A DNA stretch of 22,098 nt from a virus. The stretch is from positions 1 through 22,098 of the IMG/VR virus record IMGVR_UViG_3300037070_000088. The stretch is one strand, 5' to 3'. Shown piece by piece: positions 3,260-22,098 of the stretch (within the stretch, counting starts at the first letter, position 1; each line of letters opens with the position of its first letter). Below the pieces are notes generated by a model. That model was not told where the DNA came from and made no database searches. It saw only the letters and a list, made by a program, of their open reading frames with translations. The translations under genes and the position numbers were made by a program.

Positions 3260-5656
3260 TTGGACGATCTGGACAATCAAACTTCTGTATCCGATACAAT
3301 GGAAGTGAAGGATGAGCCAAAAAGCTCATCTGTCGTGCTTTCCGCTATCCAGGACGCAAAGAAGACGTTCGAAACCTACAACAATTTCTGCAAGAAGATC
3401 GATGATGTTCTAAGCGCACGAACGCAGCTGGTTGGTGCAGTTGTCGCGGGTGGGTTCTCAGATCAGCAGTATGACTTGTTCTGGGCTTCTATGGAGATTC
3501 TGAAGCCTGCTATTTATGCCAAGCCTCCCCGCATCGTAGTTTCCCCCAAATTCAATGATGGCGACCGTACAGACAAGACTGTTGCCGAACTAATGGAGCG
3601 CGTCCTTAATTCAGAGTTCGAGCGCTCAGACATCGACCAAGTCATGCTTGATATGCGCGATGACTTGGCTATTACGAACCGTGGTGTTGACTGGATTACA
3701 TACGAAAACGAAGACGGCGAGAAGCGTGTTTGCATTGAGCATCTTGACCGCTTCGACTTCCTCCACGAACCGGCCCGTAAATGGACTGAGGTTAGCTGGG
3801 TTGCCCGTTGCGCTTACATGACACGCAAGCAAATGGCAGACCGTTTCCGCAAATATAGCGGCCTCAAGTATCAGGATGCTGCACTTAGCTGCAACCGTTA
3901 CGACAAGGATAATGGCGCGTCCGATAACTCCATGAAGGCGGAAGTATGGGAGGTCTGGAGCCGTTCTGATAACCGCGTATATTGGGTTTCAGAAGGCGTT
4001 GACGTTTTCCTTGATGAAGATAAACCGCACCTAGACCTTAAAAAAGGCTTCCCTTGCCCACGTCCTGCATATGGAACGAAGCAGCGACGGTCACTTATCC
4101 CTGTGCCGGATTACACGCGCTATGAAAGCATCCTTGAGCAGATCAACGAAGCTACATTGAAGATTTACGCTCTCCTTGAGCAGATCCGCATGTTCGGCCT
4201 CATCCCTGGTGGCGGTGATGTTGGCAACGCTATTCAGGCCGCGCTTAATTCATCCCAGACTTCAGCCTTCCAGCTGATCCCGGTTCCTAGCGCACAGTTC
4301 GCGGGCGCTGGTGCTGGTGGTCTTGCTGTATGGTGGCCGATTGAAGTTATTGCGCAAACCATCACTGGACTTATCCAAGCACGTCAGCAGTTGTTTGACG
4401 ACTTCTACCAGCTGTCTGGCATCTCGGACATTATGCGTGGCGCGACTGAGGCGGATGAGACACTAGGCGCTCAAAGACTTAAGGGCCAATACGGCTCTGT
4501 TCGTATCAAGGACAAAACAGACGAACTGGTTCGTGTTGCGCGTGATACGGCTTGCATTGCAGCTGAAATCATTTGCGATAACTTCGACCAAGACACACTG
4601 CTTGAAATCTCGCAGATGACGATCCCGACAAAGTCTGAGGTTGAGAAGAAGCTTAAAGACCTTGAGGCATCTGGTAAAGAAGAGCTAGCCAATCTCATGG
4701 ACCAAGCCGAACAAGCCCGCCAGCAGATCCCGCCGGATGCAGACCCTCAGATGCTGCAACAGGCTGAGAAAGAATTTAAGGAAGCGCAACAGGCTATCCT
4801 TGCCAAATACTCGCCTCAGATTAAAAAGCTGAGTGAGGCCGTGGTTATCGAAGACGTTATGGAGATCATCAAAGATCGTCGCACACGCGGACTGATTATT
4901 GATGTCGAGACTGATTCGACCGTTATGATCGATGAGATGGCAGAAAAGCAGTCTCGATCTGAGTTCCTGAATGCGTTCTCATCTGCTGCTGCATCCGTTC
5001 AAGCACTCATGATGGGCGGTGAAGCTGGTGCGAAACTAGGTGGCGGTATTCTCAAGTTCTCGCTCCAGCCATACCGTGCGAACCGTGAGCTAGATTCATT
5101 GATTGATGACTTTGTCGAACAAGCCCCTCAGATGGCAGGCAGCGCAGAAGGCGATGCAGGCACAGCCGAACTTGCAGCTGCACAGAAGGCGTTGGCAGAA
5201 GCAGAAGGCGTCAAGGCACAGGCCGCGATGGCTAGCGTACAGGCTCGTGCTGCACAGGCGCAGGCTGACAATGAGCGCAAGATGGCAGAGATGCAGATGA
5301 AAGCGCAAGAGTCCGCCGCTAGGCTACAGCAGGAGAATGACAAGCTCCAGCTACAGCTTGCAGATCTACAGAGCAAGGACAGCAAGACCCAAGCAGAGAT
5401 TGACAAACTCCGCGCCGACACTGCCAAGATCCTTGCATCCATAGGCCTTGACGTTCGCAAACAGGAACTTTCTGAATATACGGCGGCGAAGAATGCACAG
5501 CAGAGCGAAGTGGATACGGCGCTTAAGGTACAATCAGAAGGCCGCGCTGAGCGTGGCGAGGAACGCGCTGATCGTCAGCAACAAGTTAGCGAACAAACAA
5601 CCGATAGGCAGATGACGTTCCAGGAACGCCAAGCCGAAACACAAGGAACGGAATAA
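3260..5656 (+). CDS. Portal protein (P22-type)
   Basis: This 798-residue protein should form the ring at one head vertex through which DNA enters and leaves. The segment LKPAIYAKPPRIVVSPKF (residues 81-98), followed by a helical TVAELMERVLN region, is typical of P22-like portal proteins. So is the conserved DMRDDLAITNRGVDWITYE block (131-149). From about residue 630 to the end the protein is almost entirely Ala-, Gln-, Glu- and Lys-rich helix and coiled coil, like the long C-terminal barrel of the P22 portal, which has a comparable total length. The start is TTG at 3260 with a modest AGGG upstream at 3249-3252. An ATG at 3299 is in frame but has no ribosome-binding site. The stop overlaps the next ATG (TAATG). 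Confidence 0.9.
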   Translation: MDDLDNQTSVSDTMEVKDEPKSSSVVLSAIQDAKKTFETYNNFCKKIDDVLSARTQLVGAVVAGGFSDQQYDLFWASMEILKPAIYAKPPRIVVSPKFNDGDRTDKTVAELMERVLNSEFERSDIDQVMLDMRDDLAITNRGVDWITYENEDGEKRVCIEHLDRFDFLHEPARKWTEVSWVARCAYMTRKQMADRFRKYSGLKYQDAALSCNRYDKDNGASDNSMKAEVWEVWSRSDNRVYWVSEGVDVFLDEDKPHLDLKKGFPCPRPAYGTKQRRSLIPVPDYTRYESILEQINEATLKIYALLEQIRMFGLIPGGGDVGNAIQAALNSSQTSAFQLIPVPSAQFAGAGAGGLAVWWPIEVIAQTITGLIQARQQLFDDFYQLSGISDIMRGATEADETLGAQRLKGQYGSVRIKDKTDELVRVARDTACIAAEIICDNFDQDTLLEISQMTIPTKSEVEKKLKDLEASGKEELANLMDQAEQARQQIPPDADPQMLQQAEKEFKEAQQAILAKYSPQIKKLSEAVVIEDVMEIIKDRRTRGLIIDVETDSTVMIDEMAEKQSRSEFLNAFSSAAASVQALMMGGEAGAKLGGGILKFSLQPYRANRELDSLIDDFVEQAPQMAGSAEGDAGTAELAAAQKALAEAEGVKAQAAMASVQARAAQAQADNERKMAEMQMKAQESAARLQQENDKLQLQLADLQSKDSKTQAEIDKLRADTAKILASIGLDVRKQELSEYTAAKNAQQSEVDTALKVQSEGRAERGEERADRQQQVSEQTTDRQMTFQERQAETQGTE

Positions 5657-6033
5657 TGCCAGTAGGTGGTGCACCAGTTACGCCAGTAGACAAAAGTGGC
5701 AACGTTATCGGAACGCAGGGGGCAACCGTTGCCTCTCCAGAATTTAACCGGAATATTGGCGCTCCAACGGTTGCCACTAATCAAACAGCATCTTCTCTAT
5801 CGCCAGCCGCAGCAGCTCAGATCGTTGCGGCTCGATCCGGGCGGCAGTCAGTGATGATAACCAACATAACCGGTACGCAGCCTGTATATCTTGGAGCGTC
5901 TGGCGTGACGGTATCGACGGGACTGTTCCTAGCCGGTTCCGTTGGCGCATCTGTCACCATCGCTACATCAGCGGCTATCTTTGCGACTTCTCCAACAGCA
6001 GCGCAGACTCTTAGCTATCTGGAGAATTACTGA
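5656..6033 (+). CDS. Small beta-rich structural protein, 125 aa
   Basis: The ATG overlaps the portal stop (TAATG), and AAGGAA lies just upstream. The first 55 residues are low-complexity (Gly, Ala, Thr, Asn, Val). The second part has the alternating hydrophobic pattern R-x-S-V-M-I-T-N-I-T-G-T-Q-P-V-Y-L-G-A-S-G-V-T followed by GLFLAGSVGASVTIATSAAIFA. This is the look of a compact beta-sandwich often seen in small phage head or tail accessory proteins. No catalytic residues are apparent. Its position directly after the portal, at the head of an accessory module, suggests a virion decoration or fibre component. Family assignment is not possible from sequence reading alone. Confidence 0.65.
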   Translation: MPVGGAPVTPVDKSGNVIGTQGATVASPEFNRNIGAPTVATNQTASSLSPAAAAQIVAARSGRQSVMITNITGTQPVYLGASGVTVSTGLFLAGSVGASVTIATSAAIFATSPTAAQTLSYLENY

Positions 6034-6446
6034 TGGTTGATGGCATATCGTATCCGGCTCCGCAGCCATCGAATACAACGCCTCCTAGTGTCTCCGATAG
6101 CGGCGCGCTTGGTAGTGACATGCGGTATGCGCTTGCCAATCATACACACGCCAGCAAGGTTCGAAAAATACGGGTTCAATGTGCAGCTGACGGAACTTTG
6201 ACGTGGACGTACAGCACACCTTTTACAAATGGGGTGACGCCTATTGTTCTGGCCGTCGCAGAGGTAGCTAGCGGTGTTACTGATATTATCAACGTCCAAG
6301 TAGTCGATACCCCCACTTCGACATCGTGCAAATTGCTGGTAAACCGCGCCAATCGATCAGTCGCGGCATTGCTTGGTTTGACCGTTCTTTCTCTCCCAGC
6401 GCAACCCGGCGTAACGTGGGTACACGCTGTAGCATTGGAACCATAA
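6033..6446 (+). CDS. Small fibre-like virion protein, 137 aa
   Basis: The start overlaps the previous stop (TGATGG, ATG at 6033). Residues 15-42 contain a linker of the type TPPSVSDSGALGSDMRYALANHTH. That RYALANHTH signature is common in phage fibre and appendage proteins, just before a beta domain. The C-terminal 95 residues alternate hydrophobic and polar residues (VTPIVLAVAEV, IINVQVVD, VTWVHAVALEP), fitting a beta-rich knob. Together with the preceding gene and the following hydrolase it forms a tightly packed set of probable surface proteins between the portal and scaffold genes. Exact role unknown; a head or neck fibre tip is my best guess. Confidence 0.65.
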   Translation: MVDGISYPAPQPSNTTPPSVSDSGALGSDMRYALANHTHASKVRKIRVQCAADGTLTWTYSTPFTNGVTPIVLAVAEVASGVTDIINVQVVDTPTSTSCKLLVNRANRSVAALLGLTVLSLPAQPGVTWVHAVALEP

Positions 6447-6447
6447 A

Positions 6448-7803
6448 ATGGCTGACGCAAAAAGACTAATCGCGCTCGGAATGGTCCCACCTCTCGCGAA
6501 AGAGGTTGCCGCTCAAATTACTGCTGGTGTTGGCAATGCTCGGCGCTTGGTAGAGTTGAGCACGGTGCCTATTTTGGCACGTGAACTGGCTAACCAGATC
6601 AACTCTGGCACCGGGAATGCGCGTAGACTTGCTGAGCTTGGCATGGTTCCTGTTATGGCTAAAGAGGTTGCGGCACAGGTTTCTAGTACACCAATCCGTC
6701 AAATCTCAACACGTACATTTGTCCCTGACCAGATTGACACGACAAACCTTGAGACAATGACGGAAAGCTACCACGTCGCCCGCGCTGACTCGCCAACGGT
6801 AGGCATCGTTATTGGTGGCTGGTATATTGGAGCCGGGAATGCTGAAATACCGCTTGGCGCTGATCTCCGGTTTACTTGGTCTGTTTCTAAGACGCACACG
6901 GGTGGGAGCTTTGTCCAAGGCAAGACAGATGGAGCGGTTGAGGGGATTGCAGCGCCGGGGCAGAATAAGCAATCAGACCTAATCCCATTCCCTGTAACAG
7001 CAGGCGATATTCTTTGCATCCGTGTTTGGCGTCATGGGGACGCTGGCGTTGGATACCAAGCCGACACAGTGCGAAGCACCAATGACTATATGGTACGCGC
7101 TCCGACGACAGCTGACCTTACTATGTCTGCCTCAACTATAACGGCCTTCGTCAGTGGGCGGATGTTTGCCCCACTAGCCGTTGTCGGCCAGCATGGTGGC
7201 AAAGCAGTAGGTATCATTGGGGATAGCAGATCTTACGGGGTTCAAGACACTTACGACAGCGATTTCGCCTTAGGTGAGGTGGCGCGTTCTATCACAAATT
7301 CTCTTCCATACTTGAACCTTTCTCGCCGCTCAATAAGCGCTTCTCAGTTCACCGCGTCCTCAGTCAATCGTCGCGACCTGTTGAAGTATTGCTCCGATGT
7401 CATCTGCAACATGGGTGTCAACGATTTCTTCAACGATAACGACACACTTGCCACGGCGCAGGCTGATCTTAACGCTTTGTGGAATCTTTTGCCATCAACC
7501 ATCCGGTTGTGGGCAACAACGATCACCCCTTACACGACAAGCACTGATAGCTGGGCCACGGAAGCAAACCAGACGATACCGGCGAAGGGCGTGAATATTG
7601 CACCTCTGAACACGTGGATTCTGACTAAGCCTAATCCCAAAATCTACGGCGTTTTTGACATTGCGCCATCTGTAACTGAGGCAAGCGGTAAATGGAAATC
7701 ACCGGGTTATACGGCTGATGGTTTGCACGCTCTTAATCTCGGGATGCTTGCTATCCGTGACGGTGGTGGAATCAACCCAGCCACTATCTTGGCGGCTCCA
7801 TGA
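6448..7803 (+). CDS. SGNH/GDSL-type hydrolase with triple N-terminal repeat
   Basis: This 451-residue protein is a probable esterase or deacetylase. The block I motif GIIGDSRSYG puts the catalytic Ser at residue 260. Block III is GVNDF (323-327). Block V is DGLH, with Asp424 and His427 completing the triad. Residues 90-245 form a beta-rich region before the catalytic domain. Residues 5-78 contain three copies of a 20-residue motif of the form RRL-ELGMVPPLAKEVAAQI, at an exact 27-residue period with short Gly/Asn-rich linkers. A fourth copy is the N-terminus of the neighbouring 69-residue protein. SGNH enzymes on virions typically remove acetyl groups from surface polysaccharides. That role, and a docking role for the repeats, are inferred. 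Confidence 0.8.
   Translation: MADAKRLIALGMVPPLAKEVAAQITAGVGNARRLVELSTVPILARELANQINSGTGNARRLAELGMVPVMAKEVAAQVSSTPIRQISTRTFVPDQIDTTNLETMTESYHVARADSPTVGIVIGGWYIGAGNAEIPLGADLRFTWSVSKTHTGGSFVQGKTDGAVEGIAAPGQNKQSDLIPFPVTAGDILCIRVWRHGDAGVGYQADTVRSTNDYMVRAPTTADLTMSASTITAFVSGRMFAPLAVVGQHGGKAVGIIGDSRSYGVQDTYDSDFALGEVARSITNSLPYLNLSRRSISASQFTASSVNRRDLLKYCSDVICNMGVNDFFNDNDTLATAQADLNALWNLLPSTIRLWATTITPYTTSTDSWATEANQTIPAKGVNIAPLNTWILTKPNPKIYGVFDIAPSVTEASGKWKSPGYTADGLHALNLGMLAIRDGGGINPATILAAP
6460..6681 (+). repeat. Three tandem copies of a 20-residue motif, 81-bp period
   Basis: The copies are at 6460-6519, 6541-6600 and 6622-6681 within the SGNH hydrolase gene. They encode KRLIALGMVPPLAKEVAAQI, RRLVELSTVPILARELANQI and RRLAELGMVPVMAKEVAAQV. 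The linkers are TAGVGNA and NSGTGNA, both seven residues. A fourth copy is at 7876-7935 in the next gene. The DNA of the copies differs at many codon positions while the protein is conserved, which suggests selection on the peptide and not a recent duplication. The pattern reads as two short helices joined by a Pro turn. Confidence 0.85.
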
Positions 7804-7809
7804 CACACA

Positions 7810-7838
7810 TTTACAACCACTCTCAGAAACGTTATAAC
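7810..7838 (+). promoter_or_regulatory. Candidate sigma70-type promoter upstream of the 69-aa gene
   Basis: TTTACA (7810-7815) and TATAAC (7833-7838) are separated by exactly 17 bases, a close match to the bacterial housekeeping consensus. They lie in the 57-base gap after the SGNH hydrolase gene. Transcription would start near 7845, just before the AGGAG ribosome-binding site of the 69-residue gene. It would add transcript for that gene, the 123-residue protein, scaffold and coat, which are the most heavily needed products. Confidence 0.45.
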
Positions 7839-7860
7839 CTAACGAACAGGAGCATTTAAA

Positions 7861-8070
7861 ATGGCAACAAGCACACGTCGTCTAGTGGAACTCGGAATGG
7901 TGCCGCCTCTTGCAAAGGAGATAGCGGCCAATATTCCAAGCTCTGACCCTGATATCTTGGCAATTACTGCTATCTCAACAGCTGACGCAACAGACCTTGC
8001 AACGGCCATCACATTGGCTAATGCGACGAAGGCAAAGGTCAATGCACTTTTGGTGGCCCTCAAAGCATGA
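7861..8070 (+). CDS. 69-aa protein with one copy of the hydrolase docking-type motif
   Basis: The ATG at 7861 follows AGGAG at 7849-7853. Residues 6-25 (RRLVELGMVPPLAKEIAANI) are a near-perfect match to the three repeats at the N-terminus of the SGNH hydrolase upstream. The rest is a single amphipathic Ala/Thr/Leu-rich helical tail (residues 35-69), with heptad-like spacing ending KVNALLVALKA. The protein could be a head fibre, decoration or assembly factor in which the motif binds the capsid or a tail part and the helix oligomerises. Short proteins of this pattern occur in other phages in my memory, but I cannot name a characterised function. A probable promoter sits directly upstream. The last bases overlap the next start (ATGA). 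Confidence 0.75.
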   Translation: MATSTRRLVELGMVPPLAKEIAANIPSSDPDILAITAISTADATDLATAITLANATKAKVNALLVALKA

Positions 8071-8438
8071 TCGAAAAACGCTGGTACACGCTGGAAAATG
8101 GGCGGCAAGTTTATCGCGCCGTCCCTCAACCTATTTTGGCGCGGTCAGATTTCCCAACGCCGTATATGCGCCTAGATACCATCGAACCTGTCGTTTCTCA
8201 GGCAGATGGCAAGACATACGACAGCATCTCTGCCCTTCGCCGGACTTATCGAGAAGACGGCAATCCTCAGGGCATTAAGTACCAAGAGATTGGTAACGAG
8301 GATATGACAAAATTCACACCTCCAAAGCGTGACGACAGCAAGGCTATTGAGGCTATTGAAAGAGCGGAGGCTGACATCATTGCCGGTCGCGCTCCTGAGA
8401 TTGGCACGATAGATCCTGGCGATTTGAATATCTGCTAA
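8067..8438 (+). CDS. Conserved-looking phage protein of unknown function, 123 aa
   Basis: The start is in an ATGA overlap with the 69-residue gene. The N-terminus is compact, with aromatic and basic residues (KRWYTLENGRQVYRAV) and then ARSDFPTPYMRLDTIEPV. A central segment, ADGKTYDSISALRRTYRED, resembles the small conserved motif of phage proteins that sit just before scaffold genes. The last 40 residues are helical and acidic. The density of Arg, Tyr and Pro in the first 70 residues suggests a nucleic-acid or capsid contact. The gene's place immediately before the scaffold suggests a head-assembly function. No named family is recognised with certainty. Confidence 0.65.
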   Translation: MIEKRWYTLENGRQVYRAVPQPILARSDFPTPYMRLDTIEPVVSQADGKTYDSISALRRTYREDGNPQGIKYQEIGNEDMTKFTPPKRDDSKAIEAIERAEADIIAGRAPEIGTIDPGDLNIC

Positions 8439-8466: not shown

Positions 8467-9690
8467 ATGGAATCGAACGTTATAACAGAACCATCCGCCC
8501 CAGATGTATCAACGGTTGTTGAGCCTCGTGGGCATAATGACGCCCCTAGTGCGAATGCGCATAAGGAAGTTGAGCCAGATCCTAAAGAGGGTGATGGCGG
8601 GGCTAAAAAACCTGAATCCCGCATGGACGCTATCAAGCGCGCTCATGCTGATATCGAGGCCAAGAACGGCAAGACTGAAGAGGTCAAGCCGGATGCTGAA
8701 GCCAAGACGGAACTAAAGCCAGAAGCTAAAGCCGAGGTTAAGGAATCTGCTCCAAAGGCGGATGCTAGCGAACCGGAGGCTAAGCCGTCTCCAAAGCCGT
8801 CTGAGGGCCGAAAGATTATCGAAGCCCCGGTTCGCTTTCTACCTAAGGCGCGTGAAGTCTGGAACAACGTGCCGCATCCAGTCCGCGAAGAGTTTGACCG
8901 TGTTATGCGGGAGAATGAGACCGAGATTGCGCAGTACCGAGAAGCAAAGACATTCCGTGATGAGCTGGCCGATTTCGAGAACGAAGCTAAATCAGGCGGC
9001 ACAACGGTCAAGGAAGCGTTGACGAATTACGTTGCGATGGAAAAGGCTTTGCGGTCTGACCCTGCGCAGGGCTTCCGTCAGTTGTTGACGAATATGCAGC
9101 TTCAGCCGCAACAGGCAATTTCTCATATCCTCAGCGCCTTCAACGTTACACCTCAGGCTCTTGCACAGCATATCAGCCAGAACCCGAACGAATACACGGC
9201 GCTTGCGTCTCCACGCCAGCAGCAATTTCAGCAGCCGCAACAGCCACAGCAGCAGGAAGTTTCGCCTGAGGTTAAGCAGCTGCAAGAGCAGTTGAACGCC
9301 ATGCGCGCTGAGCAGGTCGCAACGTCTGTGATCGCGCCGTTTCGTCAGGAATACCCTGAATACGATCAGTACGAAGACCAGATTGCAAAAGTTCTGCAAC
9401 GTGGTATTATTGAAGAATTACACGGCCATGGTTTAAGTCCGAGAGATAAGCTAGAGGTCGCGTTGTTTATGGTTGCCCCTCACATTCGAGGCGGCAATTC
9501 CAGACAGCCCGATGTCAGCGACTCTGTTCCAACCCAGCCGTCAGTGAATACGCCAGCTCTTGATGTTCGTGGCAACAAATCCATAAAGGGCGCTCCATCT
9601 CCAGGGACAGACAGTTCCAGTCGGAAGAGGGGTAGTATGTCACGAACAGAGGCACTAGACGCGGCTTGGTCCGAACTAGGTCTTAGATAA
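8467..9690 (+). CDS. Scaffolding protein
   Basis: This 407-residue, highly charged protein is directly upstream of the coat gene, where phage scaffolds usually lie. Residues 1-115 are a disordered, repetitive Lys/Glu/Pro/Ala region. Residues 117-165 form a helical domain (APVRFLPKAREVWNNVPHPV and following). A glutamine-rich stretch (about 253-268) leads into a coiled coil (VKQLQEQLNAMRAEQ). The C-terminus, after RKRGSMSRTEALDAAWSEL, is a basic short helix pair. This resembles the coat-binding helix-loop-helix at the end of the P22 scaffold. It should guide coat assembly and then leave the procapsid. AGGTG before the ATG, and the TCTCAGACAGG element at 8450-8460, precede it. No protease motif is evident. 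Confidence 0.82.
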   Translation: MESNVITEPSAPDVSTVVEPRGHNDAPSANAHKEVEPDPKEGDGGAKKPESRMDAIKRAHADIEAKNGKTEEVKPDAEAKTELKPEAKAEVKESAPKADASEPEAKPSPKPSEGRKIIEAPVRFLPKAREVWNNVPHPVREEFDRVMRENETEIAQYREAKTFRDELADFENEAKSGGTTVKEALTNYVAMEKALRSDPAQGFRQLLTNMQLQPQQAISHILSAFNVTPQALAQHISQNPNEYTALASPRQQQFQQPQQPQQQEVSPEVKQLQEQLNAMRAEQVATSVIAPFRQEYPEYDQYEDQIAKVLQRGIIEELHGHGLSPRDKLEVALFMVAPHIRGGNSRQPDVSDSVPTQPSVNTPALDVRGNKSIKGAPSPGTDSSSRKRGSMSRTEALDAAWSELGLR

Positions 9691-9702: not shown

Positions 9703-10713
9703 ATGCCAGTCACTACCGATAGAAATTACCGTCAGCTACTATCCACATCTCTTGCATACCGCACTCGTGAAATTCAGGATCTGGTGTTCAACTCGACACC
9801 TGTTTCTGCGCTGTTGCGCGAACGTGGTCTTTACCGAGAATATACCGGCCCTGAAATCCGCGTATCGCTCGAAATCGACAAGATGGATGCACAGTGGTTT
9901 ACGGGCTACGACAAGCTCAACAACGAACCAAAAGAAATCATCAATGATGCCGTGTTCACCCCAAAGAATATCGCAGTTGGTTTCTCTCTGACCGGCACAG
10001 AACTCCTTGCGAATGAAGGTCGGACACGAGTTTACAACCTCCTTGATCGCTATATGCGCAATGCTGAAAACAGCATGAAGGACGCATGGGAAGTCTCGCT
10101 CCACAGCAACGGTACATCTGATGGTGGACGTGAACTGATTGGCTTCGGTGGCGCTCTTCCTATCATCCCGAACGCTGGTGTTTACGGCGGCATTGACCGT
10201 GCAACGAATGCTATCTGGCAGACAAGCACGTTTAACGTTGCATCCAGCTTCCCAACAATCGGCACAACTTGGGACTCCACGACTGCCCGTCCTATGCTTG
10301 AGCAGATTGTGGCGCTTCGTTCCAAGGGTTCCCGTCATGCCACTATCGCAGTCGCTGACCTTCTTTCTTATCAGCCTCTGTCTGCTTCCATGGTCGCCCA
10401 CCAGCGCATTACTCGTGATGATGGCGCACCTCGTACTCTCGGCTTCCGTGGCCTTGAAGTCGCAACACCAGTTGGCAACATCGAAGTGTTCTGCGCAACC
10501 GGCGTCGGCAACGTAATGCCAGCCAACACCATTTACGGCTTGGACCTCGAAGGCTTGGCGGTTTACTACCACCCAGACCGCAACATGGTTCCGTTGTTCC
10601 CTGGTGACGGCGCGATGCCAATCAACCAAGATGCAATTGCACAGTATCTCGTGTGGAACGGTGAACTTGTTCTTGAAAACCCACGTTATAGCTGGCGCTT
10701 GATCACGGCTTAA
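9703..10713 (+). CDS. Major capsid (coat) protein
   Basis: This 336-residue protein starts 13 bases after the scaffold gene with a GAGGAA ribosome-binding site. An N-terminal helix (RNYRQLLSTSLAYRTREIQDLV) is followed by an extended beta segment with EYTGPEIRVSLEI, then a helix with TGTELLANEGRTRVYNLLDRY. The C-terminal half has mixed alpha/beta features such as ATIAVADLLSYQPL. It ends with a strand pair (NGELVLENPRYSWRLITA). Length and composition fit an HK97-fold coat protein of the type found in short-tailed phages that use a separate scaffold. It should form the icosahedral shell. Neighbouring scaffold and small head genes support the call. No delta domain or pro-head protease signal is visible. 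Confidence 0.87.
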   Translation: MPVTTDRNYRQLLSTSLAYRTREIQDLVFNSTPVSALLRERGLYREYTGPEIRVSLEIDKMDAQWFTGYDKLNNEPKEIINDAVFTPKNIAVGFSLTGTELLANEGRTRVYNLLDRYMRNAENSMKDAWEVSLHSNGTSDGGRELIGFGGALPIIPNAGVYGGIDRATNAIWQTSTFNVASSFPTIGTTWDSTTARPMLEQIVALRSKGSRHATIAVADLLSYQPLSASMVAHQRITRDDGAPRTLGFRGLEVATPVGNIEVFCATGVGNVMPANTIYGLDLEGLAVYYHPDRNMVPLFPGDGAMPINQDAIAQYLVWNGELVLENPRYSWRLITA

Positions 10714-10725
10714 GGAGCAAATAAC

Positions 10726-11076
10726 ATGCCTGCAACAACTCCATATCGCACTACTCCGCAGCTTGGACCGCAGCTGGATGAGAAATTCACCGGCCTGCCA
10801 TACTGGGATTCTCAGCTTGGCGTATCCAGTGGCACATCTGGCATTTCGCCTTCTTACCGCCTTGGAAACAAAGAAGTCGGCAATGATGGTCATGATTACG
10901 TCTGGGTACAGGCATCGGCTGCAATCGCAGCTGCTGCATCTCCCGGCACTCAGATCACGATCACTGAGCCTGCTTTCACGGCGGCAACTGGCGCTGGTGG
11001 CTACTATGCACCGATTACCGGCGTACTGATTAACCAGTACTTCCACGCTCGTAAGGGCGCACTCGGTTCTCCATAA
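10726..11076 (+). CDS. Small head protein, possible decoration protein, 116 aa
   Basis: It begins 13 bases after the coat gene with a good AAGGAG site. The protein is rich in Gly, Ala, Thr and Tyr, with a short N-terminal arm (TTPYRTTPQLGPQL). A beta-type core follows: GHDYVWVQASAAI, then TQITITEPAFTAATG and YYAPITGVLINQYFHAR. Its acidic-poor, beta-rich profile and its place directly behind the coat suggest a decoration or minor head protein made in high copy number. The region ends in two stops and a perfect hairpin. No homologous family can be named with confidence from reading alone. Confidence 0.7.
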   Translation: MPATTPYRTTPQLGPQLDEKFTGLPYWDSQLGVSSGTSGISPSYRLGNKEVGNDGHDYVWVQASAAIAAAASPGTQITITEPAFTAATGAGGYYAPITGVLINQYFHARKGALGSP

Positions 11077-20118: not shown

Positions 20119-22098
20119 ATGGCCGATATCAGAATTAAAGACCTCCCACTGGCAACCGGTGGTACTGCACCAGTTGGTTCTGATGCTGTTGCCATAGATG
20201 GTCTTACAACACGGAAAACAACAATTACTACGCTTGGTGATGCGGCTGTTCCTGTTGCGTCACAAGCTGAAGCGGAGGCTGGTGTTAATGCGGTGAAGCG
20301 CATGACGCCTGTAACTACGAAGCAGTCAATAGCCTCAGAGGTCGGCGTAACACTCGCTAGTAAGGCGCAGGGTGATCTTGCCAACACAGCCTTACAAAGC
20401 GATGACATCGGCGTTACCATCCAAGCGTTCAGCGCAAACCTTGACACGTTGGCCGCTGTCGTTCCGGGTGCATCAGGGTTGTCTATCCTATCCATGGGTG
20501 CTGTAACTGATGTCCGCAATTATCTGGATGCAACGCCTTATGTCGCGACACGTACAGCGTTGAAGGCCATTGATACGACAAAAGAGATATGCGCTATTCT
20601 GACCGAGTCTGGCCGCGAAGGTATATTCGTTTGGACAACAGGTGACTATTCAGGGCAAGTCACGGCAGACACTCTCGAAGGTGTTTTTGTTAAGGCTAAT
20701 GCGATTGCGGCAAGTTCTGGGGCTTGGGTGCGCGTGTCTGCTAGCAAATATAATATCACATGGTTTGGTGCAGTAGGCGACGGGACAACAAACAACACAG
20801 CCGCTATCCAAGCTGCTATGAATTTGGCGCTGAGCTACGGTACAGGCATCTTTGTTCCAAAGGGTAAATTCAGGGTCAACAGCCAAATCACAGGCACATT
20901 CCCTGTTGCCTCTAGCGGTCCTAGCAACAACAAAAACAACTATGGTCGGTTTGAGATCATTGGCGACGCCATGGATCTTTCCATCCTGTATTTCCCGACG
21001 AACGCCGGTATTGAGGTTGTCGCTCAGTCATTCCAGCAAACAGTTTGCGCGAACAAGGTTTCATTCACGGCTGGTCAGGCTGGCGGCGGAAATGATGCGC
21101 TTTACGTGCGTTGCCGTTATGCCTTCTTCGGCAGCTATACGGCGCAGAGTGATATTGTCGAATGCTGCTTCCGTGGGGATGATGGTTACGGCGAAGTCTT
21201 TTACTGGAAGACATGCGTCAAGCTCTACAATATGACATCGGTCAACTTTGATCGAAACACCATGTACGGCCCTGTGCTGGCGGCGACAGCAGCGAGCTAT
21301 GGTGATGGTGTCTACGTTTCTTCTACTACAACCCCAGGAATTGCCACATCTACGACTCCGGGTCAGGGAACGACCTATAATTTCACGAACAATAACTTCG
21401 TGTTCTTGGGTCGCTCTATCGTCGTAGGTGATCTATGTCAGGTGTTTAGTGTCGGCGCTGGTAACCATATTCTTAACGGGTTCCACGGCGTTTTTGTCGA
21501 GGCAGGGATTACTGAGGCCCGCCAGCTAATGGTGACAGGTACGGAAATCAGCGTTAACGGCGATGGCATCCGCATGAATACAGCATGCTCCGGGTCCAAC
21601 ATCAACAGCAACTATATCGCTGTCGCGCCGGGAAGGTCTGGCGTTGTCCTGAATACCAACGCAGGGGCAATGAATAGTGGCGGTACAACAATTCAAGGCA
21701 ATACATTCGTCCCCCTAGACGTAGGCGCGGCGAATGGTATCTATGTCAACACGGATTATGCCCCAGTCACTATTGATGGCAACACATTCCTCGGCCTTGC
21801 TACCGGCATTGCTCTCGATGCAGGATCGAAGCAAGTTGATGTTGGCAAAAACAGGTTTATGAACTGCACCAACAACGTCATTGATAGCGGCATAGGAAAC
21901 GGCCAATTTCCTCAAAATGATAGAGGCTTGGTGACGCAGCTAACCTCGAAATCAACATCTGTCACATTGAACAAAATGGCTGGCACCATCACCACAAATA
22001 ACCAAGCTCTTGCGTCTGGCGGGATTGTGACTTTCACAGTTGCAAACTCAAAATTCAAGGGTGAGGATTTGGTGGTTCTGAATGTACTGAATGGTATC
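20119..22098 (+). CDS. Tailspike with pectate-lyase-type beta-helix (3' truncated)
   Basis: ATG 20119, preceded by AAGG, opens a frame that runs past the window end (660 codons seen, no stop). Residues 1-210 are a head-binding and linker region that begins MADIRIKDLPLATGG. Residue 212 starts NITWFGAVGDGTTNNTAAIQAA, the signature at the beginning of pectate-lyase-3-type beta-helix tailspikes. Repeated coils such as NFTNNNFVFLG, NHILNGFHGVFVE and TIQGNTFVPL continue to about residue 600. From about residue 611 a new module begins (VTLNKMAGTITTNNQAL, then GGIVTFTVANSKF), a known type of C-terminal fibre domain. The spike should bind and perhaps cleave surface polysaccharide. Catalytic residues cannot be picked out by eye. 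Confidence 0.9.
   Translation, partial: MADIRIKDLPLATGGTAPVGSDAVAIDGLTTRKTTITTLGDAAVPVASQAEAEAGVNAVKRMTPVTTKQSIASEVGVTLASKAQGDLANTALQSDDIGVTIQAFSANLDTLAAVVPGASGLSILSMGAVTDVRNYLDATPYVATRTALKAIDTTKEICAILTESGREGIFVWTTGDYSGQVTADTLEGVFVKANAIAASSGAWVRVSASKYNITWFGAVGDGTTNNTAAIQAAMNLALSYGTGIFVPKGKFRVNSQITGTFPVASSGPSNNKNNYGRFEIIGDAMDLSILYFPTNAGIEVVAQSFQQTVCANKVSFTAGQAGGGNDALYVRCRYAFFGSYTAQSDIVECCFRGDDGYGEVFYWKTCVKLYNMTSVNFDRNTMYGPVLAATAASYGDGVYVSSTTTPGIATSTTPGQGTTYNFTNNNFVFLGRSIVVGDLCQVFSVGAGNHILNGFHGVFVEAGITEARQLMVTGTEISVNGDGIRMNTACSGSNINSNYIAVAPGRSGVVLNTNAGAMNSGGTTIQGNTFVPLDVGAANGIYVNTDYAPVTIDGNTFLGLATGIALDAGSKQVDVGKNRFMNCTNNVIDSGIGNGQFPQNDRGLVTQLTSKSTSVTLNKMAGTITTNNQALASGGIVTFTVANSKFKGEDLVVLNVLNGI

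Follow-up and report, generated by a model that had tools for sequence, protein, structure and literature searches.

A 20-residue motif is carried three times by a predicted hydrolase and once by its 69-amino-acid neighbor in the window, a 22,098 bp stretch of viral DNA (IMG/VR record IMGVR_UViG_3300037070_000088, positions 1 to 22,098). On balance, the motif is probably a head-docking hairpin that works as a set of three, with the three copies supplied either by a trimer or by a single chain. It would form a helix-turn-helix hairpin anchoring proteins to the phage head. The 69-amino-acid protein has one hairpin and a C-terminal head-fiber module, and three such chains would associate through the module, giving the trimer three hairpins with which to bind a threefold or quasi-threefold site of the capsid. 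The three hairpins of the hydrolase would fold within one polypeptide as an equivalent six-helix anchor, mounting a single SGNH esterase, with no need to trimerize, on the same kind of site. From the head the esterase could then deacylate host surface polysaccharide. Three hairpins are taken to make one anchor because of the count of one or three copies, the exclusive distribution of the fiber module, the shared genomic slot and the compact predicted fold of the triple, for which the trimer-or-one-chain account is the simplest. We infer that the docking site is the head and that the fiber-trimer and single-chain anchors are equivalent.

Genomic Setting

The late gene block of the window is podovirus-like. 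The gene order is terminase, portal, two small genes, hydrolase, 69-amino-acid protein, a conserved gene, a probable scaffold gene, the major capsid protein (MCP) gene, genes for neck and tail, and a tail-spike gene that continues past the end of the window. Coordinates are given in Table 1. The nearest named phage by capsid protein was Microcystis phage Mwe-JY13 (76% identity), which has a fiber of the one-copy kind; a Chelativorans prophage is another relative.

Table 1. Features of the window that bear on the anchor and its genomic slot.
Feature	Position	Strand	Evidence and remarks
Portal	3260..5656	+	phrog_12082, E 2e-188; borders the cassette on its upstream side
Two small conserved genes of the cassette (125 and 137 aa)	5656..6446	+	Same position in L041, L085 and L174
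Three-copy anchor + SGNH hydrolase, 451 aa	6448..7803	+	ORF; phrog_8480 esterase, E 2e-43; Pfam Lipase_GDSL_2, E 4e-4, under the Pfam cut-off
Motif copy 1, KRLIALGMVPPLAKEVAAQI	6460..6519	+	Hydrolase residues 5-24; 51.7 bits with independent fiber profile; predicted helices 4-9, 14-26
Motif copy 2, RRLVELSTVPILARELANQI	6541..6600	+	Hydrolase residues 32-51; 34.2 bits; predicted helices 31-36, 41-53
Motif copy 3, RRLAELGMVPVMAKEVAAQV	6622..6681	+	Hydrolase residues 59-78; 37.1 bits; predicted helices 58-63, 68-80
SGNH catalytic domain (GDS 258-260, GVND 323-326, DGLH 424-427)	7216..7728	+	Pfam match to residues 257-427; blocks found by pattern
One-copy head-fiber-like protein, 69 aa	7861..8070	+	phrog_6994 head fiber protein over the C-terminal part, E 4.7e-7
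Fiber motif copy, RRLVELGMVPPLAKEIAANI	7876..7935	+	Residues 6-25 of the 69-aa protein; 58.1 bits with independent profile
Fiber C-terminal helix (residues 46-68), probable trimerization module	7996..8064	+	AF2 helix, pLDDT about 90; fiber-tail module, leave-one-out E 4e-13
Conserved gene directly 3' of the fiber slot	8067..8438	+	phrog_21669; landmark in the slot comparison
Probable scaffold gene	8467..9690	+	Named from position only
MCP	9703..10713	+	phrog_9953 major head protein, E 7e-88

Relatives were drawn from IMG/VR and comprised more than 100 phage contigs. Putative small head-fiber-like proteins of one family have the motif as their N-terminus, and in most close relatives this small protein is encoded between the portal and capsid genes. 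The slot between the portal gene and the conserved downstream gene holds the one-copy fiber in other phages, and a free three-copy gene lies there in L169-L175, L142, L156, L165, L167 and L148. The window and L041 contain both forms, the three-copy gene being first, so simple mutual replacement does not apply. Phage L089 had neither form in the portal-capsid slot; the gene for its three-copy esterase is located in the late region, next to tail genes.

Motif Copies and Their Conservation

The three hydrolase copies have an exact period of 27 residues with seven-residue linkers and the fourth copy lies near the start of the 69-amino-acid protein, as described in the initial annotation. A motif profile built solely from one-copy proteins of other phages was searched against the six frames of the window. 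All four copies were recovered (hydrolase, E 4e-36, three domains of 34-52 bits; fiber, E 1e-17) and no further match with E < 1 was found in the six frames. Shuffling the N-terminal 90 amino acids of the hydrolase 2,000 times never gave a score above 6.9 bits.

Between copies 11-15 of the 20 residues are identical, with just 0-7 of the 20 codons identical. The pN values were 0.20-0.37 compared to pS values of 0.69-1.12. With pN low and synonymous sites near or beyond saturation, these values indicate that the peptide is under purifying selection, which agrees with the earlier claim that it is kept while the codons differ. Copies in like positions were more similar to each other than under permuted copy order. 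The observed value was reached in 15 of 2,000 permutations with all nine included, in 1 of 2,000 for the six close ones, in 81 of 2,000 with one per clade and in 412 of 2,000 for the four closest. This position-specific likeness makes it probable that the three-copy array arose once and long ago. Recent tandem duplication of the copies was rejected because synonymous sites are saturated and the conservation is position-specific.

When 297 genomes of Hyphomicrobiales and 385 of Alphaproteobacteria were searched, each set contained the motif in one genome. Both were the same genome (L042), in which the motif adjoins matching portal and capsid genes. The motif is essentially confined to this phage group. 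A tblastn search of 50,697 phage records with the hydrolase N-terminus, the one-copy fiber and a free three-copy protein as queries was of little use, yielding just a weak match to the motif in Mwe-JY13, and no close relative was found in viral_contigs with the hydrolase as query. A match to L043, a Pseudomonas plasmid protein with a motif-like C-terminal end (E 0.008), was judged to be a chance match.

Copy Number and Attached Domains

A single unit profile was used to count copies in all fetched sequences. It gave 34 distinct proteins with one copy and 20 with three, two of the latter coming from opposite ends of one contig. No other copy number was found among these 54, which are not 54 independent events since the three-copy proteins are probably of one ancestor. 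The copies are spaced 26-30 residues apart, mostly exactly 27. The three-copy proteins form several divergent groups and the count stays at three even in the very divergent L142, L148, L135 and L146. Contig IMGVR_UViG_3300023106_000013 (L131, L138; 56.6 kb) has a near-identical portal region at both ends and is possibly a duplicated or joined assembly.

The C-terminal fiber module was found in 30 of the 34 one-copy proteins, each tested by leave-one-out, and the remaining four have a different C-terminus. It was found in 0 of the 20 three-copy proteins, the window hydrolase among them. By sequence, the hydrolase is outside the trimeric head fiber class and has just the anchor in common with it.

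The domains fused to the motif included SGNH, SASA with Fn3, Ig-like-looking domains and the fiber module. The free-standing three-copy proteins are 80-84 amino acids long with nothing attached. In the L089 protein a SASA esterase and an Fn3 domain are attached (Pfam E 4e-25 and 5e-11, respectively), in the L085 protein a beta-rich domain that could be assigned to no known family, and in the L135 group a domain that is probably Ig-like and weakly matches head-decoration profiles. The genes encoding the anchor triple with an Ig-like-looking domain in L135 (9332-9844), L138 and L124 are located directly upstream of the portal gene rather than downstream. The three-copy gene of L041 has an ATGA overlap with the following gene, whose 681-amino-acid product is beta-helix-like by eye only. 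A polysaccharide-deacetylase-like gene (L088:34-843, Pfam E 2e-6) is located immediately 5' of a free three-copy gene.

Predicted Structure of the Proposed Anchor

AlphaFold2 (AF2) modeled the three-copy region, with 14 homologues, as a single compact domain of six helices (pLDDT 92.8, pTM 0.82). No PDB match was found for this model (Foldseek best E 4.5; VIA-align best Z 2.5), which does not prove that the fold is new. The viral model A0A516LIL0 (84 amino acids, 52% identical) has the same fold. The single fiber chain gave a pTM of 0.50, although its long C-terminal helix was predicted with confidence. Such a low value is expected if a subunit is modeled without its partners. Foldseek returned no match to the fiber model. 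Copies 1, 2 and 3 and the one-copy units have a common hydrophobic pattern (r 0.93-0.96) and lack the polar caps that an open solenoid has at its ends, which gives weak support for a closed arrangement of the triple.

The One-Copy Protein and Known Head Fibers

The head fiber protein family phrog_6994 was matched by 10 of 19 one-copy proteins with a best E of 4e-14. A direct match to the crAss001 head fiber gp21 (residues 50-92, E 2.7e-7) came from the one-copy protein in the same slot of L013 and not from the fiber of the window. The one-copy family has a C-terminal module homologous to gp21 residues 42-97. None of the 19 members of the one-copy family matched Pfam PF11133 (Phage_fiber_2) at E 0.1. 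One member had a weak UBA/TS-N match (E 0.025).

The gp21 protein of crAss001 is trimeric, with residues 1-38 in a hexon pocket at a threefold site, and shows homology over residues 42-97 to phi29 gp8.5 (PMC10172136), a homotrimer at quasi-threefold sites (PMC6542822). Shigella phage B2 gp45 is a capsid-bound homotrimer (PMC11654681), and its sequence matches phrog_6994 and phi29 gp8.5. By analogy with these C-terminal relatives the window fiber would also be a trimer.

Both gp21 of phiCrAss001 (PDB 7qof) and gp8.5 of phi29 (PDB 3qc7, 6qvk) have, as proposed for the window fiber, a short N-terminal capsid anchor and a C-terminal fiber module. The layout of a lineage-specific N-terminal anchor with a common C-terminal trimeric module is therefore known, but this anchor is not. 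Its predicted form is a helical hairpin, which differs from gp21 residues 1-38 and from the gp8.5 beta-barrels. To our knowledge there is no single-chain three-copy form of gp21 or gp8.5. B2 gp45 (PF11133, PDB 9d82) resembles the window fiber as a small head-fiber protein matching phrog_6994, the homotrimer being that of gp45 (PMC11654681). The N-terminal half of gp45 is unrelated to this family, which has no PF11133 match.

The SGNH Hydrolase Domain

The hydrolase contains GDS (block I) at residue 258, GxND (block III) at residue 323 and DxxH (block V) at residue 424, the motifs of SGNH/GDSL enzymes. The Lipase_GDSL_2 match scored 21.3 bits, below the gathering score of 32.9. Based on the motifs and the PHROG match the protein is classed as a divergent SGNH-like enzyme with a predicted activity only. 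Similarity to the esterase of Mesorhizobium phage Lo5R7ANS begins at window residue 85, past the tripled anchor, which gives the enzyme the look of a portable module. Its substrate may be an acylated host surface polysaccharide. A sequence hit to designed SAKe kelch proteins was judged to be an artefact.

Phage esterases are usually found on tail spikes (PMC11654681). Esterase tail spikes of the G7C gp63.1 type, Moo19 and B2 are virion-borne esterases acting on host surface polysaccharide (PMC11654681), as is proposed here. They are trimeric and tail-borne, whereas the window hydrolase is one chain with a tripled anchor of the head-fiber type. Among the papers searched, none on head-mounted SGNH enzymes or single-chain trimer anchors was found.

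Proposed Docking in Sets of Three

The initial annotation read the motif as a possible virion docking code, filled by a fiber with one copy or by a multivalent enzyme with three. A shared docking element is supported by the group-confined motif, the portal-capsid gene block, the head-fiber-type C-terminus and the varied fusions; the contrast of one against a multivalent three was not supported. It is quite unlikely that the copies act as independent docking peptides, with the fiber binding through one and the enzyme through three and hence more tightly. Conserved and evenly spaced copies would suit such an arrangement, but it predicts forms with two, four or five copies, which the census lacks, and the triple is predicted as one compact domain and not as beads on a string. 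The C-terminal module of the fiber also belongs to a family of trimers. If the fiber is a trimer like these relatives it too presents three hairpins, and an avidity contrast of one versus three is not upheld. The strict count of one or three and the absence of the fiber module from the three-copy proteins appear to fit stoichiometric replacement better. Docking, as the best reading of the sequences, is thus partly supported, with extra avidity unnecessary.

The location of the dock and the role of the triple may also be read differently. A dock on the tail, neck or portal vertex rather than the capsid shell is unlikely, although the three-copy esterase gene of L089 adjoins tail genes and tail spikes are the usual place of phage esterases (PMC11654681). 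There is a precedent in the SU10 nozzle, where three Trp of one chain form a quasi-threefold dock for a trimeric fiber (PMC9509320). As in the anchor proposed here, three repeated elements of one chain make a quasi-threefold fit to a trimeric partner, but the tripled side in SU10 is a receptor loop on the tail whereas here it is the anchor of the displayed protein, and there is no homology. Both forms lie between the portal and capsid genes at most loci and the fiber C-terminus matches capsid-borne head fibers, which argues for the shell. It is also quite unlikely that the three-copy region stands by itself as a helical domain with a role of its own (an assembly factor, a chaperone or a nucleic-acid binding domain), related to the one-copy protein by ancestry alone. 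The free proteins without attachments and the weak UBA/TS-N match would agree with such a domain; its fusion to three kinds of extracellular-type domains and its place in a slot common to the fiber, within the virion gene block, would not.

Because capsids provide threefold sites, most of the proteins that decorate them are trimers. This raises the question of how a phage can display a protein that does not trimerize. An anchor with three copies in a single chain, if true, would be a direct natural answer, freeing the cargo from trimerizing. With slightly more doubt than confidence, we propose a previously undescribed phage-head anchor with no PDB match and a rule of three, whose single-chain form would be an adaptor that places single, non-trimeric enzymes as well as Ig-like domains at the threefold sites of the capsid. 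Head-mounted esterases would then join the known tail-mounted ones. The account would also provide a rule for spotting hidden head-displayed enzymes in phage genomes, and a small anchor of about 80 amino acids for one cargo per threefold site.

Additional Observations

A tail-spike-like open frame (20119-22098, plus strand) runs past the end of the window and has a pectate-lyase-like start by eye. A second, tail-borne enzyme is therefore probable in this phage in addition to the proposed head enzyme. Short genes of the repeated peptide type GFPVVIxxNGxGxPVxxVxxGAP were seen in the portal-fiber interval of L007 (5812-5976), L021 (1755-1919), L094, L020 and others, where they occupy the place of the 125- and 137-amino-acid genes of the window. 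A long frame antisense to the MCP gene was present in three phages (window 9739-11046, L041:11080-12192 and L087:10053-11840, all on the minus strand) and is most likely an effect of composition.
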